Virus record (IMG/VR): IMGVR_UViG_3300021197_000071
Span: 1-42,726 of that record
Length of the DNA stretch: 42,726 nt
Origin: a virus
Direction: 5' to 3' (one strand)
Part shown: positions 29,285 to 37,312 of the stretch, piece by piece
How the letters are laid out: every line of letters begins with the position of its first letter
How positions within the stretch are numbered: the stretch's first letter is position 1
Notes under the pieces: model-generated
Seen by the model: the letters and a program-made list of their open reading frames with translations, nothing else
Database searches by the model: none
Told to the model about the DNA's origin: nothing
Translations under genes and position numbers: made by a program

Positions 29285-32200
29285 ATGGCAAAGGCGGGAC
29301 TTTCATTAGGCGCACCGCTTAATGCAATGGACATAAACCCAATAGGGAATCCGTATGACCCTACGCCTAGCAGTGGTCTATCATCACTTAATAATAATTT
29401 AGCAGACACAGCAGCCTTAGGAGAACTTGCATTAGAGAATGCTAATCTTGGTGTACCTGATCTTAAGCCACCACAAGGTACTGGCCCGTCAGTTCTATAT
29501 AGTCCTTCAACTAACAAGATGTTTGTTAATGGTGCATTGTTTGATGCTGATGATTCACAATCAGCACTAGATTCAGTACCATTTGTTAAAGAGTCTAGGA
29601 AAGAAGCTCCTGCTGGTTTTGACTGGCAAGAAGTTTCACCACAAAATTACAACGAATACATAAAAAATATTAACGACCCCGGTCTTGGTCAGTTGATGGC
29701 TCGTAACTTTGAGATAGGTGGTAGTAATCTAAAACTACTAGCTGGTCGAGGTATGCAATTTCTTGGTGCTGAAGACACAGGTCAAGAATGGGTAAACGAT
29801 GCTGTCTCAGAACTTTATTACAATCAACCATATCAACGTGAATTTACTAGTATTGAGTTTGGCGATGATAAATCCCATGGTGCAATCGATTGGTTTGTAG
29901 CTAACCTTGCTCAGCAAGGGCCAATGCTTATCGAATCTATTGTTACTACGCTTGCAGGTGCAGGCGCAGGTGCTGTAGCAGGTGGTGGTGCTAATCCATT
30001 TACTGCAGTAGGTGGTGGTATCATGGCATTTATGGGTAAAGAAACTTTTAAACAAAGTGTTCTTGCCGCCGCTAAGAAATATATGAAAGGACAAGCTCTT
30101 ACTAATGGTGAGAGAAAACTCCTTCGTGAAGTTGCAGGACTTACAGGTGCTGCTCAGATTAAAAACCCTAAAGCTTTTATTGTTAATCCTGCAGGACAAG
30201 CAGTTCTTAAAAGAAACACTGCCGCAATTAGGTCACAAATAGACGATGCAGTATTATCAGGAGCAAAAACAGCCGCAAAAGGTGGCCGAAATCAGGCACT
30301 AGTAGGTGGCGGATTCCTAGGTAATCTTGGTGGTTCATACGCTTTAGGTGTATCAGATATTTATGGTGAAGTACGAGACACAGGTGTAGGTGATAGAGGC
30401 ACAGCACTACTAGGTGCTATACCTTATGCTGCACTAGAAACACTTCCAGAGTTTATTTTAGCAGGTAGAATCTTAGGCTTGCCAAATTCTGCGTTATCTC
30501 CAGCTGGTATGGCTAGAGGTGGTATTGCTAAGCGAGCAGGTAAAGGCTTCGCTGTTGGTGGTACACTAGAAGGTCTTACTGAACTAGGGCAAGAGAGTAT
30601 TCTCTTAGCTGCTACGAATCAGTTTGGAGACGCAGAAATTGGTAAAAGGTTAATCAACGCATTTGCTGCAGGCTTTGCAGTAGGTGGCCCAATAGGTTCA
30701 CTAGCCAATCTTAAAAGAGGGGAACCAACTAATCTTCTTAAAACAGATGACAATCCAGAACCGGGTAATGCTCTAGTTCCTATAGATCCAGAGAACCCGA
30801 ATCCTAGTCCTCTAGAAGGTCAGGTGTTAGGGCCGGAAGCTCCTCCCTCTCCTGTTGCGCTCCCTGCTCCTTCTAGAGGGCAACTTCCTGCCCCTATACC
30901 TCCTGTTACACAAGTGGGTCAACAACCTGATTTTGTAGCTGGACAAGAAACAAGACAAGGAACTGCCGCAGATATTCCTGTACAGGTAAATGCTCCTGTT
31001 ATTCCTGCTGCTCAGTCAGGACAACAAGGACTACTAAATGTTTTTGGGGATGAACCAACCACAGCTACTGAAATTCAATCTAGAATGGAACCTACTGGTA
31101 CTAATAACTCAGTAGAAGAAGCTCTTAATAATACAGCACAGACTACTAATGCTCAACAACTAGAACTTCCATTAGAAGATCCAACTATTTCTGCAGTTAA
31201 ACAGACTGCTCAACAGCCTGAAGCACAAGAAACTGCTATGGGTCAGCAGATGTTACAAGCTGCTACAATTCGTGAGAATGTATTAAAACAAGAATCTGAA
31301 CAGGCTAGACTAGAAGCTGAGCAAGCTAAACTAGAAGCTGAACAAGAAAGAACTAGAGCTGAGCGTCAGCGTCAGTTTGATGAGGCTCTACAACAAAGAC
31401 TAAGACAACAGGTACAAGAACTAGAAACCGCTAGAGTTGAACAGATTCTAGCTGATAATGAAAGGCTAGCTGATGAAAATGCTCAGCTAAGAATGCCTAC
31501 AGTTCCTGCTGTAAGACAACCAATTCAGCCAAGTTTGCCGGGATTTGCCATACCATATGGTGAAAGACGACTACGTCAACGTGTGGCCGAAAGGTCACAA
31601 CCTGTTGCCGAAATACAACAACCTACTGCCGCTGAGCTTGAGCAAGCTGGCCAACTGCCATTACCTTTTGATGAGCCTGCAGCAGCTAACCTAAGGAGGG
31701 GAGATGCCGTACAAGAGCGAAGCACAGAAGAAGTGGATGGAAGCCAACAGGCCAGACCTAGCGAAGGAGTTCAAGAAGGAGACACCCAAGAACGCCCAGT
31801 TACCACAACGGCTAGGAAAGCCGAGCGACTCCGAAAGACGCCGGTTAGCGAGGTTGCTCGCCAAGAACAAATCACGGACGCAACTATCGAAAGGGCTGAC
31901 AGACGGGCTGCGCAACCAACAGATCAAACACAACAAACAAGGGAACAGGATAGGCAAGAAGTCACTAGTGTAGATGATACTGCTTATGCTTCACCTTATG
32001 AAGCTTGGGAAGATATGGCGGTTACAGATATACCTCTTGATGATCTCCCGGTAGCTTCAAGACAAGCATTTGAGAACTTAGTGTCAAGTGGTGCTGTTAC
32101 ATATGAACAAACAAAAGACATATATGATAAAGCTCGTGGTGAAATGGAGCTTACTCCACTGCAAGAATTAGAAGAAGCTGTAACATTTCTTGAGACAGCT

Positions 32201-35200
32201 ACTGATTCGGCCACGTTTGACTATGCTGCTGAGACTATTTTAGATTATGCTTTCTTCAATACAGACTCAAACCTTGGTAAGAAAACTGCAGGTGGACAGC
32301 CTAGTATTCGTGAAAGAGCATTAGCTTATATACAAAATACAGAGTTTAGTGCTAGACAATGGAGTGCTATTGACCAAGCTTTCGTAGCTGGTGCAAACCT
32401 AAACGACAGACTTACAGGAACTTTCCGTGGTAAATCTAAACCATGGGTAACTTTTGCTGCACAACGTAATCTATTAGATTCTATTGAAGCTCCTATGAGA
32501 GCTATGCCTAAATGGTATAAAGCAAAACAAGCAGAAGTTGTTGCAGAACCTATAGCAGAAGCTAGCCAAGCTGAAGTACAAGATACAGCCGCGATGGAAG
32601 AAGATACTCCAGAGCGTGTTAGGTTGTTTGCAAGCCAAGAAATAGAAAAACAAATTGACTTACAGATTCGTGACCTAGCAATAAATCAAATCAAACGTAA
32701 GAACTCTAAAGAAATTACACGTCTTAATGAGTTGTTTGCTAAGGCAGATCCTGAATATCGTATGGCTAGAGGGCCTAAGATTAAGGATTACTTCAATGAA
32801 AATGGAGAGATTAAACTAGTAAATTCTGGTGAGGGTAGGCTAATACCAACTACTAAAGAGTTTACTCAAGCAGAATTAAAAGAACGTAACACACAACAAA
32901 GAGCAGCAAGACTTAAAGCTGCTGAACGTGAGAAAGAACAACTAGAAGAAATAGCTAGGCAAAACGAACAAGCAGTAGACAATCGTAGTTTATCTGATGA
33001 GCAACTGTTCTCATCATTTGATGATTCAGAAGGTAACTTCTTTAGAGCAGATGGCTCACCTGTTGGTAATCCTGTACCAAAAGGTAAGATTAAAATTATT
33101 GTAGCTCAGGTTCTTAAGAAACTTAAAGTTAAACCTACAGTTACAGTGGTATCAAATGTAGAAGAACTACGACAGACTAATCCTAAGTTATTTGAAAGAG
33201 CAGTAAAAAGTAGAGCTGACTTTACTACCACTCCTGCTGTAGGTTTTTCAGTAGGTGATCAGATTATTATCTTTAGTGACTATGCTAAGAGTGAACAATC
33301 TGTACGTCTTGTTATAGCTCACGAAGCCTTAGGTCACTTTGGATTCAGAGCATTCATGCCTGATTCTAGACTTAATGCTATCTTCAGAGAAATATATAAA
33401 ACAGATGGACATATCCGTGCAGTTGCTGACAGGAAAATGGAAGCAGGTATGGGACTACAAGAAGCAGTCGAAGAAGCAATGGCTGATTCTGCAGCTTATC
33501 TAGATACTAGTGTTGTTGCTAGGTTCTGGGCAGCTGTAAAAAACTTCTTAAATAGAATTGGTATGACATTTGAAGATGACCTCGCCCGGTACCTACTAAG
33601 TCAAACGCGTAGAAACTTACGGTCAGGTGGTAGTGGTACAGTATCAGGTCTACAGCTAAGCAAAAACCTTAAACGACTATCACAGGAGAGCTTGTATGGA
33701 CGCTTTAGTCTTGAGAATGATCGAGCTGATCTAGCTTCTACATTGTTTTCTATGTATGGAATGAACAAGAAAGCTGGCCCATACGGATCATTTGAAGGAG
33801 TAAAGAACCTAGTTAAGAATGCTAAAAATATAAACAACACCAACGCAGCAGCAAACTGGTTAGGTGAAGCCTTAGAAAATGTACAAACATTAGATAACGT
33901 AGCCACTCGTAACGAAGGCTTATCTAAAATATTTAAAATATTCCAAGCTCAATCAGCTAGAGTTAAACGACTTCATGCTGAGTATGAGAAGATGACTGCC
34001 TACTCACATACGCCTAGTTGGTTTGGTGTAGCTAAAGGGCCTACTGTAGAAGAACTACAACAAGCAGGTGAGTTGTTAGCTTATGCTGCTTTATATAAAG
34101 GTAAAGCTGTTAACGACCAAATGATTAGAGACATGCCTAACCTAGCAGTGGCTGATGCAAATGGTAATGTAGTTATTGATAGTAATGCTTTTGAAAGAAT
34201 CAAAGCTGCTGGTGAAGTAACACAACAAGAATTTTTAGATGGTTTTCAAGTTACTCTAGATTTAATTGACGGTAAGGAAAACTCACAACCACTACCATAT
34301 AAGCCTGACTTTCCAATTACAGAAAATGTATGGCGTATCTATACTGAACAACGTAATGCAGTAAACCAATCTGCGCTGGATGTGCTTGAAGCTAACCTAG
34401 GTGCTGCACTTGATCAAAAGAATGAAGCGCTAGAAACATTTAAAGATGTAGTTGGTTCATCAGGTAATGCTCCTACTACTGTAGAAATACAAACACTGCG
34501 TAGAGTTATTGAAGAATACTCTAACCTTTATAAAGAAGGTGCAGTCCAAGAAGGCGCAGGATTAAAATACAAAGAAGAATCTGTAGCAAAAGCTAGAACC
34601 TTTATAGCAGCTATCAATCGTGCAATGCACAATGAATCAAAACTAAACGACTGGAAAGCAGGCACAGATAATACTGCTGACTTCCAAGGTGAGCAATACC
34701 AAGATATTATTGCAGGATTAGAAAGATTAAATGCTTTAGGTCTACGAGAGAAACAGGCTTATAACATAACCAACGCTATACAAAACATTTACTTACTAGA
34801 TGTTAAGAATGCTAATGCAGAGTTCTTAGCTAAGCGAACAATCATGGGGGCGTATGTACCATTTACTAGACGTGGTAAATTCCAAATCATGGTTAAGGCT
34901 TATGATTCTAATGGTAAAGCAGTTGAAATGGATGAGGCATACAAGAGTTCAATGCCTTACTTCCAATCTAATAGTCGTGCAGAAGCCGCAGAAATCCAAC
35001 AGAATATAGATGAAGCATTCGGTGATGCTGACTTTACTGTACTAAATGCTAATGGAGAAGAAGTTAAAGTTAAGTTTGCTGCTGAATATAGTGCAGCAAG
35101 ACAGTCACCACCTATTACACACTCAGTAAATTTATCAGAATTTGTTGATGTTCTATCCAGATTAAATATAAACATCACACCACAAGAGCGTGAACGTATT

Positions 35201-37312
35201 GTTGTGTCTTTGACTAGACAAGGTGAACGAGCACGGAGAGGTCTACAGAGATCAGGTGTAGCAGGTTGGGATACTGATGTTGTTCGTAGTGTATCAGAAC
35301 ACTTGGAAACTCAAGGTCATCTAGCAGGTAAAACATTCTATAGACATAAGTTAAATAGAATTATGCTTGATAACTCTATGTGGAGAGGTAATCCTGAAAA
35401 GCTTAATCGACTTGAAGAAGCTATGCTTAGAGCAGAAAGACAAGGTAATCCTGAAAGAATTAAAACTGCTCGTCAAGAATATGATAGCTATGCTTCTATG
35501 TATCAATACTCCGCTGATGTAGGTGCAAACAAAACTGTTAATCTTTATGGTTCTGAAAACAACGATGGAACTAGAAAAGTTAAAAAAGCTAAGACTGAAG
35601 GTAGAGGTGAGTATTACAGAGAGCAAGCTAAGAGAACTCTTGCTTGGTTTACTGATGCAGCTAACATTGATCAGTCTACTGAGGATATATTATCAGGTGA
35701 AGTTGGCTCTAGGTTTAAACTAGTTGCAGTATTATTCCAATTAGGTGGTTCATTTGCTACCGCTGCAATTAATGCAGTATCTATGGTAACTCATTCTGTA
35801 CCATATCTAGCTACTTATAATCCAAAGCGTGGTTATGGTGGTGGATTTGGTTTCAGTGCATCAGGTGCAGGAATGATTCGTGCCGCTTCTAATATGAAGA
35901 ACTATAAACTAGCTGAGTTTGCTTATGTAAATGAAGTAGCTAATGGTGAAAACTCTGCACAACTACAAGAGAAACATGGTCTAAGCCAAGATGAAGCTGA
36001 TGCTTTGTTTGAAGCTACAGGACAAGGTGTTCTTCAAGCTGCTCAATTTAATGCACTAGTTGGTACAGCTAGAGGGGGAGTAAACAGTAATCAAACTGCT
36101 TCGGTTATTAAAGGGTGGATGTTTATGTTCTCTCTTACTGAGCAGTTAAACCGTAGAACTACCTACCTTGCTGCATATAGATTAGAGCGAGACCGTCAAT
36201 TAGCATCAGGTGCAACGCAACAAGAAGCACAAGAAAGAGCACAAGAGTTTGGACGTAAGGCTGTTAATACCTCTCAAGGTGAATACGCTATGTACAACAG
36301 ACCTGAAATGGCCAGAGGTAACGTAGCTCAATACATATTTATATATAAACAGTTTGTTATTATCAGTGTCGAACTGATGAAAGGTATGAATTACAAAGGA
36401 AGATTATACTTCTTAGGTCTACTTCTACTAGCATCTGGTGTTAAAGGGATACCATTTGCTGACGACTTGATGGACTTAGTTGATACACTTGCTCAGAAGT
36501 TTGGTATTAAGATGGGAAGCATAGAGAAAGAACTTGCTAAGTTATCTGATTCCCTTCTACCCGGATCTTCACCGTATGTAATGAGAGGTTTAATGGATAG
36601 ATTTACTGGTGCCACAATTTCTACAAGACTTGGTTTTGGTGATTTAGTTCCGTTGACTGGAGCATTTAAAGAAGGTTCAGACCCATGGCGTGAAGTAGAA
36701 AACTTCTTCGGGCCAGTCTATAATGCAATGCAGGAGGGTTTGTTTACAACTGGTAGGCTTGTAAGTTACGGGGCTGAAACAGTAGGACTAAAAGATGATA
36801 CGACTAGGTTCGTAGATATTCTTCGTGATAATCCTATTGCTGCACTACGAGGTGTAGCAGATGGTTATACATATCTAAGTGATGGAAGAATTAGTAATTC
36901 CAAAGGTAATGTTATCTCTAATGATGTGCCTATCTCTACAGCTATATTCCGAATGTTAGGTTTCTATCCTGCTGTAGCAACATTACAAAATGATTTAGTT
37001 CGTATCAGTAAGTTCTCAGATGCTTATGTAAAATCAATGAAGATGAAGTACACTCAGGCATATGTAAAAGCTAAACTAAATGGTGATATACAAGAAGCAC
37101 AACGTATTGTGCAGATGGTTAATGAACATAACCGTACACACAGAGGTACAGAGTTTGAGTTTAAAGGATTTGTTAGGTCTGCTAATCGTTCATACAATGC
37201 AGCTAAGAAACCAACACTTCTAAGGTACAAGAAATATGCGCCTAGAAACATCAGGTCTGAACTAGATGAGTTAATGGAAATCTATGGTATTGACCCTGAG
37301 GATTTAAAGTAA
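29285..37312 (+). CDS. Giant polyvalent-type internal virion protein (2675 aa)
   Basis: The last and largest rightward gene. Visible parts: Gly/Ala-rich hydrophobic stretches (about 219-252 and 370-480), a Pro/Gln-rich linker (about 485-660), a coiled coil (about 665-735), a basic/polar stretch encoded where a second gene is overprinted (about 807-897), a zincin-like HEALGHF site (His1346, Glu1347, His1351; acidic EEAMAD at 1396-1401), long helical regions, and near the C-terminus NVAQYIFIYKQFVIISVELM plus a hydrophobic helix and GIPFADDLMDLVDTLAQKFG (about 2346-2405). This last block matches my memory of large polyvalent protein-associated domain 38. Such proteins are packaged and injected with DNA, with mixed enzymatic domains against the host. 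Confidence 0.8.
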   Translation: MAKAGLSLGAPLNAMDINPIGNPYDPTPSSGLSSLNNNLADTAALGELALENANLGVPDLKPPQGTGPSVLYSPSTNKMFVNGALFDADDSQSALDSVPFVKESRKEAPAGFDWQEVSPQNYNEYIKNINDPGLGQLMARNFEIGGSNLKLLAGRGMQFLGAEDTGQEWVNDAVSELYYNQPYQREFTSIEFGDDKSHGAIDWFVANLAQQGPMLIESIVTTLAGAGAGAVAGGGANPFTAVGGGIMAFMGKETFKQSVLAAAKKYMKGQALTNGERKLLREVAGLTGAAQIKNPKAFIVNPAGQAVLKRNTAAIRSQIDDAVLSGAKTAAKGGRNQALVGGGFLGNLGGSYALGVSDIYGEVRDTGVGDRGTALLGAIPYAALETLPEFILAGRILGLPNSALSPAGMARGGIAKRAGKGFAVGGTLEGLTELGQESILLAATNQFGDAEIGKRLINAFAAGFAVGGPIGSLANLKRGEPTNLLKTDDNPEPGNALVPIDPENPNPSPLEGQVLGPEAPPSPVALPAPSRGQLPAPIPPVTQVGQQPDFVAGQETRQGTAADIPVQVNAPVIPAAQSGQQGLLNVFGDEPTTATEIQSRMEPTGTNNSVEEALNNTAQTTNAQQLELPLEDPTISAVKQTAQQPEAQETAMGQQMLQAATIRENVLKQESEQARLEAEQAKLEAEQERTRAERQRQFDEALQQRLRQQVQELETARVEQILADNERLADENAQLRMPTVPAVRQPIQPSLPGFAIPYGERRLRQRVAERSQPVAEIQQPTAAELEQAGQLPLPFDEPAAANLRRGDAVQERSTEEVDGSQQARPSEGVQEGDTQERPVTTTARKAERLRKTPVSEVARQEQITDATIERADRRAAQPTDQTQQTREQDRQEVTSVDDTAYASPYEAWEDMAVTDIPLDDLPVASRQAFENLVSSGAVTYEQTKDIYDKARGEMELTPLQELEEAVTFLETATDSATFDYAAETILDYAFFNTDSNLGKKTAGGQPSIRERALAYIQNTEFSARQWSAIDQAFVAGANLNDRLTGTFRGKSKPWVTFAAQRNLLDSIEAPMRAMPKWYKAKQAEVVAEPIAEASQAEVQDTAAMEEDTPERVRLFASQEIEKQIDLQIRDLAINQIKRKNSKEITRLNELFAKADPEYRMARGPKIKDYFNENGEIKLVNSGEGRLIPTTKEFTQAELKERNTQQRAARLKAAEREKEQLEEIARQNEQAVDNRSLSDEQLFSSFDDSEGNFFRADGSPVGNPVPKGKIKIIVAQVLKKLKVKPTVTVVSNVEELRQTNPKLFERAVKSRADFTTTPAVGFSVGDQIIIFSDYAKSEQSVRLVIAHEALGHFGFRAFMPDSRLNAIFREIYKTDGHIRAVADRKMEAGMGLQEAVEEAMADSAAYLDTSVVARFWAAVKNFLNRIGMTFEDDLARYLLSQTRRNLRSGGSGTVSGLQLSKNLKRLSQESLYGRFSLENDRADLASTLFSMYGMNKKAGPYGSFEGVKNLVKNAKNINNTNAAANWLGEALENVQTLDNVATRNEGLSKIFKIFQAQSARVKRLHAEYEKMTAYSHTPSWFGVAKGPTVEELQQAGELLAYAALYKGKAVNDQMIRDMPNLAVADANGNVVIDSNAFERIKAAGEVTQQEFLDGFQVTLDLIDGKENSQPLPYKPDFPITENVWRIYTEQRNAVNQSALDVLEANLGAALDQKNEALETFKDVVGSSGNAPTTVEIQTLRRVIEEYSNLYKEGAVQEGAGLKYKEESVAKARTFIAAINRAMHNESKLNDWKAGTDNTADFQGEQYQDIIAGLERLNALGLREKQAYNITNAIQNIYLLDVKNANAEFLAKRTIMGAYVPFTRRGKFQIMVKAYDSNGKAVEMDEAYKSSMPYFQSNSRAEAAEIQQNIDEAFGDADFTVLNANGEEVKVKFAAEYSAARQSPPITHSVNLSEFVDVLSRLNINITPQERERIVVSLTRQGERARRGLQRSGVAGWDTDVVRSVSEHLETQGHLAGKTFYRHKLNRIMLDNSMWRGNPEKLNRLEEAMLRAERQGNPERIKTARQEYDSYASMYQYSADVGANKTVNLYGSENNDGTRKVKKAKTEGRGEYYREQAKRTLAWFTDAANIDQSTEDILSGEVGSRFKLVAVLFQLGGSFATAAINAVSMVTHSVPYLATYNPKRGYGGGFGFSASGAGMIRAASNMKNYKLAEFAYVNEVANGENSAQLQEKHGLSQDEADALFEATGQGVLQAAQFNALVGTARGGVNSNQTASVIKGWMFMFSLTEQLNRRTTYLAAYRLERDRQLASGATQQEAQERAQEFGRKAVNTSQGEYAMYNRPEMARGNVAQYIFIYKQFVIISVELMKGMNYKGRLYFLGLLLLASGVKGIPFADDLMDLVDTLAQKFGIKMGSIEKELAKLSDSLLPGSSPYVMRGLMDRFTGATISTRLGFGDLVPLTGAFKEGSDPWREVENFFGPVYNAMQEGLFTTGRLVSYGAETVGLKDDTTRFVDILRDNPIAALRGVADGYTYLSDGRISNSKGNVISNDVPISTAIFRMLGFYPAVATLQNDLVRISKFSDAYVKSMKMKYTQAYVKAKLNGDIQEAQRIVQMVNEHNRTHRGTEFEFKGFVRSANRSYNAAKKPTLLRYKKYAPRNIRSELDELMEIYGIDPEDLK
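31704..31973 (+). CDS. Overprinted small basic gene inside the giant gene (89 aa)
   Basis: An 89-residue gene in a different frame within the giant gene, with its own strong AAGGAGGGG about 3 nt before the ATG. The N-terminus MPYKSEAQKKWMEANRPDLA is instantly typical of small phage proteins of the 'M[PA][YF]KSxAQ[RK][RK]...' type (I recall DUF3008-like and related families), followed by KEFKKETPKNAQLPQR and an Arg/Lys-rich tail (SERRRLARLLAKNKSRT). Base use shifts here: this stretch is richer in G and C and in AAG/GAG/GCC codons than the giant gene on either side. I judge it real and co-expressed; function unknown. Confidence 0.7.
   Translation: MPYKSEAQKKWMEANRPDLAKEFKKETPKNAQLPQRLGKPSDSERRRLARLLAKNKSRTQLSKGLTDGLRNQQIKHNKQGNRIGKKSLV

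Follow-up and report, generated by a model that had tools for sequence, protein, structure and literature searches.

Architecture of the locus

The window, by which we mean the whole stretch of DNA analysed, is the 42,726-base virus record IMGVR_UViG_3300021197_000071. Its genome is podovirus-like: the genes for a terminase, a T7-type head-tail connector/portal, tail fibres and an internal virion protein share one direction, and the replication genes run the opposite way. The nearest relative of the portal is that of Rhizobium phage RHph_TM3_14A (36%); HMO-2011-type phages reach about 27%. The structural gene run is closed by a giant ORF, and a small ORF lies wholly within it, on the same strand and in its +1 frame. 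The features of the locus are as follows:

29285..37312, + strand: giant ORF, 2675 aa, PLxRFG domain-containing protein, host of the nest (NF032893, phrog_11358, dN/dS)
31692..31694, + strand: TAA stop in the small frame, 12 nt (4 codons) upstream of the ATG and overlapping the Shine-Dalgarno sequence
31693..31699, + strand: Shine-Dalgarno sequence AAGGAGG, spacing 4 nt (from the sequence)
31704..31973, + strand: nested small gene, 89 aa, basic, in the +1 frame of the giant (relatives, nested copies, selection, helical model)
31703..31975, + strand: dual-coded linker, giant residues 807-897, predicted to be disordered (AlphaFold pLDDT, giant dN/dS 1.09)

The giant protein matches the PLxRFG model NF032893 near its C-terminus (residues 2140-2633; 175.7 bits, cut-off 100) as well as phrog_11358 (E=4e-42), and related giants are annotated as DarB-like. 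A Pfam search of the giant returned no domain above threshold; besides the PLxRFG region, its sequence contains a HEALGH motif at residues ~1346-1351. This motif is zinc-metallopeptidase-like and conserved among the four closest giants, which is in keeping with self-processing ejected proteins.

The small gene extends from an ATG at 31704 to a stop codon ending at 31973 (89 codons), and the giant frame remains open across its whole length. The complete frame with its own Shine-Dalgarno sequence inside an uninterrupted giant frame, as described in the initial sequence-only reading, is thus confirmed. The TAA just upstream of the ATG argues against the small frame being the extension of an upstream +1 reading. 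The encoded protein carries the N-terminal motif MPYKSEAQKKWMEANRPDLAKEFKKETPKN..LP. Inside the giant gene of the window, no other out-of-frame ORF of 30 codons or more has a Shine-Dalgarno match of at least 5 nt.

The two frames of the overlap differ in their predicted structure. AlphaFold models the small protein as three helices with confidence (mean pLDDT 82), whereas in a model of giant residues 740-1000 the overlap reaches a pLDDT of only ~37-50 and is predicted to be disordered, with a folded domain starting from about residue 904. The polar, low-complexity character previously ascribed to giant residues 807-897 is borne out by the sequence.

A rise in GC content had also been noted. 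The overlap indeed has a GC content of 0.53-0.555 compared with ~0.36-0.44 over most of the giant gene, but the claim that composition rises only here was overstated, as 200-nt windows around 30,780-31,030 reach 0.50-0.52. A more telling sign is the loss of T: none of the 89 codons of the small frame in the window ends in T, which is expected if the giant frame has to stay free of stop codons. This depletion is present in all 64 distinct nests (as we call small genes nested in giants) and largely explains the local GC rise. When the small protein of the window was held fixed and its codons were drawn according to the codon usage of the giant, 13.4 giant-frame stops were expected and none of 400 simulations was stop-free; the open giant frame is therefore not due to chance.

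A reverse-strand ORF at 31691-31957 (88 aa) was considered as well. A similar frame is open in L004 and L005 and closed in L016, and there is no independent support for it; we take it as a by-product of the T-less third positions of the small frame.

Conservation of the nest among giant genes

A search with the C-terminal domain of the giant yielded 154 loci, which were chosen blind to the small frame. The nest is present in 39 of the 49 close-group loci whose giant is long enough and in 18 loci of the distant group, where it was undetected in 42 other long giants. The small gene occupies the +1 frame in 57/57 of these nested loci. They include near-copies and are related by descent, and thus do not represent 57 independent events; two further loci (L038 and L055) were excluded for the short open frame around their small gene. 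The preference for the +1 frame may partly be due to the stop-poor +1 frame of RNY-rich coding sequence, which is an inference.

When 12 giants are aligned, their nests all start at the same column. The tree contains one clade that is nested in all 35 members, and at least seven changes are required overall to explain the distribution of nested and non-nested labels. In nine contigs with a giant devoid of the small gene, a search of the whole record found no copy elsewhere, although most of these records are possibly incomplete.

Shine-Dalgarno matches of at least 5 nt precede 57 of the 64 distinct nests, compared with 6.6% of the other out-of-frame ATG or GTG codons in the same giants; for matches of at least 6 nt the figures are 46/64 and 1.1%. 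ATG serves as start codon in 57 and GTG in 7 of the distinct nests, and in 45 of them a stop codon in the small frame occurs within ~20 codons upstream.

Selection in the two frames

We sorted substitutions in the overlap by their effect in both frames, in a manner comparable to an overlap-aware dN/dS. This test is rough and includes no correction for multiple hits. Across 29 disjoint pairs, the small frame shows purifying selection (NN/SN 0.36, CI 0.30-0.42), whereas the amino acids of the giant frame appear neutral (NN/NS 1.09, CI 0.94-1.23); at the protein level the giant is not conserved there. In the flanking giant sequence the giant frame gives 0.43 upstream and 0.33 downstream by the same measure, and a pseudo-small +1 frame gives 0.74 and 0.80. 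The nest is thus precisely where selection switches frame.

Even so, selection keeps the giant frame open in the overlap. In 53 nested genes we observed no giant-frame stop where 394.5 were expected from synonymous codons drawn by the giant's own usage, and the third frame contains 194 stops compared with 182.1 expected. In stand-alone relatives of the small gene, the equivalent of the frame that nests invariably leave open contains 8.2 stops per 100 codons. The earlier statement that both frames are maintained therefore holds for the small frame, which is conserved as a protein; the giant frame is merely kept open while its amino acids drift neutrally.

Relatives of the small protein

An initial scan of viral contigs found three copies of the small gene, one identical and two 66-69% identical, each of them nested at the same position inside an uninterrupted giant frame. 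In an alignment-based scan 169 viral contigs were found to encode relatives, of which 80 were kept. A protein search of the 89-residue frame thus does reveal homologues, and the stops in relatives that would have refuted the gene do not occur. The kept relatives are of two kinds: stand-alone genes, and genes nested in a giant ORF with a relative frame that never varies. Stand-alone relatives mostly comprise 40-60 codons; nested copies are often longer (80-98 aa) and bear a longer basic C-terminal tail than stand-alone phrog_1375-type proteins, with which they share the region of the N-terminal motif. The homology between the two kinds rests mainly on the first ~37 residues.

Stand-alone relatives are found in the named phages P-RSP2, S-CBS2, C75C1, 023Pt_psg01 and Vorvolakos, and more weakly in Indlulamithi. 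Among the genes next to them are those for terminase, portal, tail sheath, tail fibre and head proteins; in 023Pt_psg01 the relative sits among head genes. Nests of this family, which we refer to as MPFKSEAQ-type, were found in uncultured contigs alone and in no cultured phage; a scan for the family in the giants of eight cultured DarB/PLxRFG phages showed it to be absent there.

Database searches provide little information on function. Matches to phrog_1375, a family of stand-alone small phage proteins of unknown function, reach E-values down to 2.5e-6 for stand-alone relatives and 0.0046 for one nested copy (L016). The small protein of the window itself has no PHROG match at E<=1 and therefore no direct match to phrog_1375, and Pfam and NCBIfam searches assigned it to no family. 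Its structural model gave no significant match in a fold search of the PDB, and in a viral structure library it matched only short uncharacterised phage proteins, none of them below 0.001. Based on the charge of the protein, the virion gene with which it would be co-expressed and the structural genes around its stand-alone relatives, a role as a late virion-assembly or DNA-associated accessory protein is conceivable; this is a tentative working guess without direct support.

The small genes beside the portal of HMO-2011 and CRP-603 were checked as possible relatives and belong to a different family. In five other loci (L039, L046, L053, L086 and L100) longer proteins of 133-670 aa begin with the MPFKSEAQ motif, as though a short N-terminal module had been fused to various partners.

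A probable exchangeable slot in the giant linker

The movement of small genes into and out of the linker is supported mainly by their presence, replacement or absence among close relatives. Giant L160 carries the MPFKSEAQ small gene in the slot. The giants of L143, L146 and L166, which are 85-87% identical to L160, hold an unrelated 60-codon gene at the same place (near giant residue 790). This gene, termed MPLKKG and starting with MPLKKGSSNKVV, has the same kind of Shine-Dalgarno sequence and lies in the same frame; it is also present in L147, where the giant is truncated, and in L130, which is 67% identical to the nested L131. The MPLKKG gene matches phrog_2423 over its first 22 residues (E=6e-8), and its small-frame measure is 0.11. 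L153, 87% identical to L160, contains neither small gene, and its giant lacks ~52 residues at the slot.

Comparison of relatives for presence or absence of the insert, suggested with the sequence-only reading, thus revealed slots that are nested, empty, or occupied by a phrog_2423 gene. The best reading of this pattern is that linkers of giant virion genes are an exchangeable slot for small genes. As to the dual coding described as rare in the sequence-only reading, the nest is no isolated case: it is met again in dozens of lineages, and other small genes can occupy the slot.

Probable origin and inferred expression of the nested gene

We are highly confident that the small ORF represents a real nested gene. 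It is very probable that 31704-31973 is a phage gene translated on its own, with its entire length contained in a giant virion-protein gene. Its nesting, its conservation, the Shine-Dalgarno sequence, the selection on either frame and the presence, absence or replacement of the gene rest on the data, whereas its translation, capture and function are inferred. The core of the earlier proposal, a complete small gene of a known small class, captured in a linker, dual-coding and easily missed, survived every test run, and the observation is both real and stronger than originally claimed.

According to the mechanism we propose, ribosomes would start on the giant mRNA at the internal Shine-Dalgarno sequence and ATG, which would yield a small basic helical protein, and for ribosomes on the giant frame this stretch would serve as a disordered spacer between domains. 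In the giant frame selection merely bars stop codons, while it preserves the sequence of the small protein. The linker most likely captured the gene from a small-gene family that is found elsewhere as single genes among structural ones; as close relatives show, the slot can lose its gene or take an unrelated one, making it an exchangeable site.

Capture by the disordered linker is the most likely origin of the nested gene, although it is inferred and no rooted tree of the short domain is available. The opposite direction, in which the small frame was born in the giant linker by overprinting and later escaped to become stand-alone genes, could account for the age of the nest in the lineage of the giant (35/35 members of one clade) and for the often greater length of nested copies (80-98 aa compared with 40-60 aa). 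We consider it unlikely, as stand-alone relatives occur in very different phages, including tail-sheath myovirus-like contigs and phages of Prochlorococcus, Streptomyces and Mycobacterium; the same slot houses an unrelated gene that is also known elsewhere (phrog_2423), and the giant amino acids in the overlap look neutral, as if passively read. It is this wide stand-alone distribution, together with the exchange at the slot, that favours capture over birth in place.

Two further alternatives concern the way the overlap is read. If the giant were not a single chain through the nest, for example if it consisted of two proteins, the overlap would not be truly dual-coding, and the neutrality of its giant amino acids would be readily understood; the complete avoidance of giant-frame stops (0 compared with 394 expected) and the purifying selection on both flanks in the same frame make this very unlikely. 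A frameshift from the giant frame, producing a fusion of the N-terminal giant with the small protein without internal initiation, would be compatible with the shared strand, the +1 frame and the ability of Shine-Dalgarno-like sequences to stimulate frameshifting. However, homology to stand-alone proteins begins exactly at the ATG or GTG, the Shine-Dalgarno sequence is found at the spacing of a start codon, and stops in the small frame lie 4 codons upstream in the window and within ~20 codons in 45/64 nests, which leaves frameshifting hardly credible. There is no point in favour of a chance open frame or an assembly artefact; the conservation pattern already refutes this explanation, and with independent contigs from many metagenomes, homology, Shine-Dalgarno sequences and selection against it, it can be set aside.

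Comparison with known nested genes

Nested genes of phages are usually regarded as rare and as fixed pairs, with each protein constraining the other. The closest known cases are Rz1 nested in Rz and gene E nested in gene D of phiX174; the record of phage PEp14 also shows rz1 inside rz. As in the window, these are complete small genes in the +1 frame of a larger phage gene with a start of their own. In contrast to the window, where the host frame is a neutral giant linker, they form fixed functional pairs or both of their products are constrained; moreover, the nested gene of the type seen in the window can be absent or swapped for an unrelated gene. With one partner freed by its position in a linker, the nest described here is almost cost-free, exchangeable, and conserved over deep divergence. 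It further offers a natural experiment on the tolerance of a protein to sequence imposed on it and on the forces that select the small proteins.

Other systems to compare are the PLxRFG/DarB-like giant phage proteins and the polyvalent proteins (Iyer et al. 2017, PMC5512222). The host gene of the window carries the PLxRFG model above its cut-off; the word "overlap" is absent from the main text of that article. We found no description of nested or overlapping genes in such giants in the open-access literature, which is only weak evidence of absence as subscription papers and preprints were mostly outside its scope. Gene callers that bar long overlaps will miss nests, and the linkers of giant structural genes suggest themselves as a place to look for missed genes.

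Further nested families

The MPFKSEAQ family is accompanied by other nested genes. A family of ~85 aa (WEQYQSKEEQ) with the Shine-Dalgarno sequence AAGGAG is nested near residues 549-595 of six giants (L230, L234, L238, L241, L248 and L250). Most of these also carry the MPFKSEAQ nest near residue 850-930, and thus contain two nested genes in one giant. A TnpV-like family (PF14198, score below the cut-off) of ~102-132 aa, with the N-terminus MNLNxWxxxAxxHWK..., is nested in the +1 frame of DarB/PLxRFG giants, among them those of the cultured phages PEp14, Pavtok, LASTA, SopranoGao, Itty13, VvAW1, Atu_ph08 and Mwe-JY07. Its positions are:

L262 (PEp14): 6022 onward
L268, L269, L270, L271 and L273: 1501
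L261: 6526
L265: 7249

In the records of PEp14, Pavtok, LASTA, SopranoGao, Atu_ph08, VvAW1 and Mwe-JY07 this stretch is covered by a single giant CDS only, and in that of Itty13 the CDS annotated at the nest is on the other strand. No giant-frame stops were found in WEQYQSKEEQ nests (49.3 expected) or in TnpV-like nests (32.0 expected). The small-frame measures of 0.57 and 0.62, respectively, are weaker than that of the main family and derive from overlapping sequence pairs.

Disordered linkers of giant phage virion genes might be general docking sites for mobile small genes, which would arrive complete with their own Shine-Dalgarno sequence, enter in the +1 frame, be selected as proteins, be tolerated by the host protein as spacer, and be gained, lost or swapped in the manner of accessory genes, making the giants gene clusters folded into one frame. 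We regard the case for this generalization as evenly balanced.

In Sinorhizobium phage PBC5 (L272), the TnpV-like frame lies within the annotated orf33 and is open for ~500 codons upstream; this record is old and contains many conflicting ORF calls around the giant.

As codon bias yields long +1 frames in GC-rich giants, out-of-frame ORFs with a Shine-Dalgarno sequence were counted as nests in such giants only if conserved. Further +1 ORFs of this kind that resemble small phage proteins (e.g. MTSELPKVTKAQQLKARNVLMKL...), for which there are no selection data, were seen in L244 (at giant residue 1086), L256 (at residue 1153), L245, L207, L213, L221 and L249.
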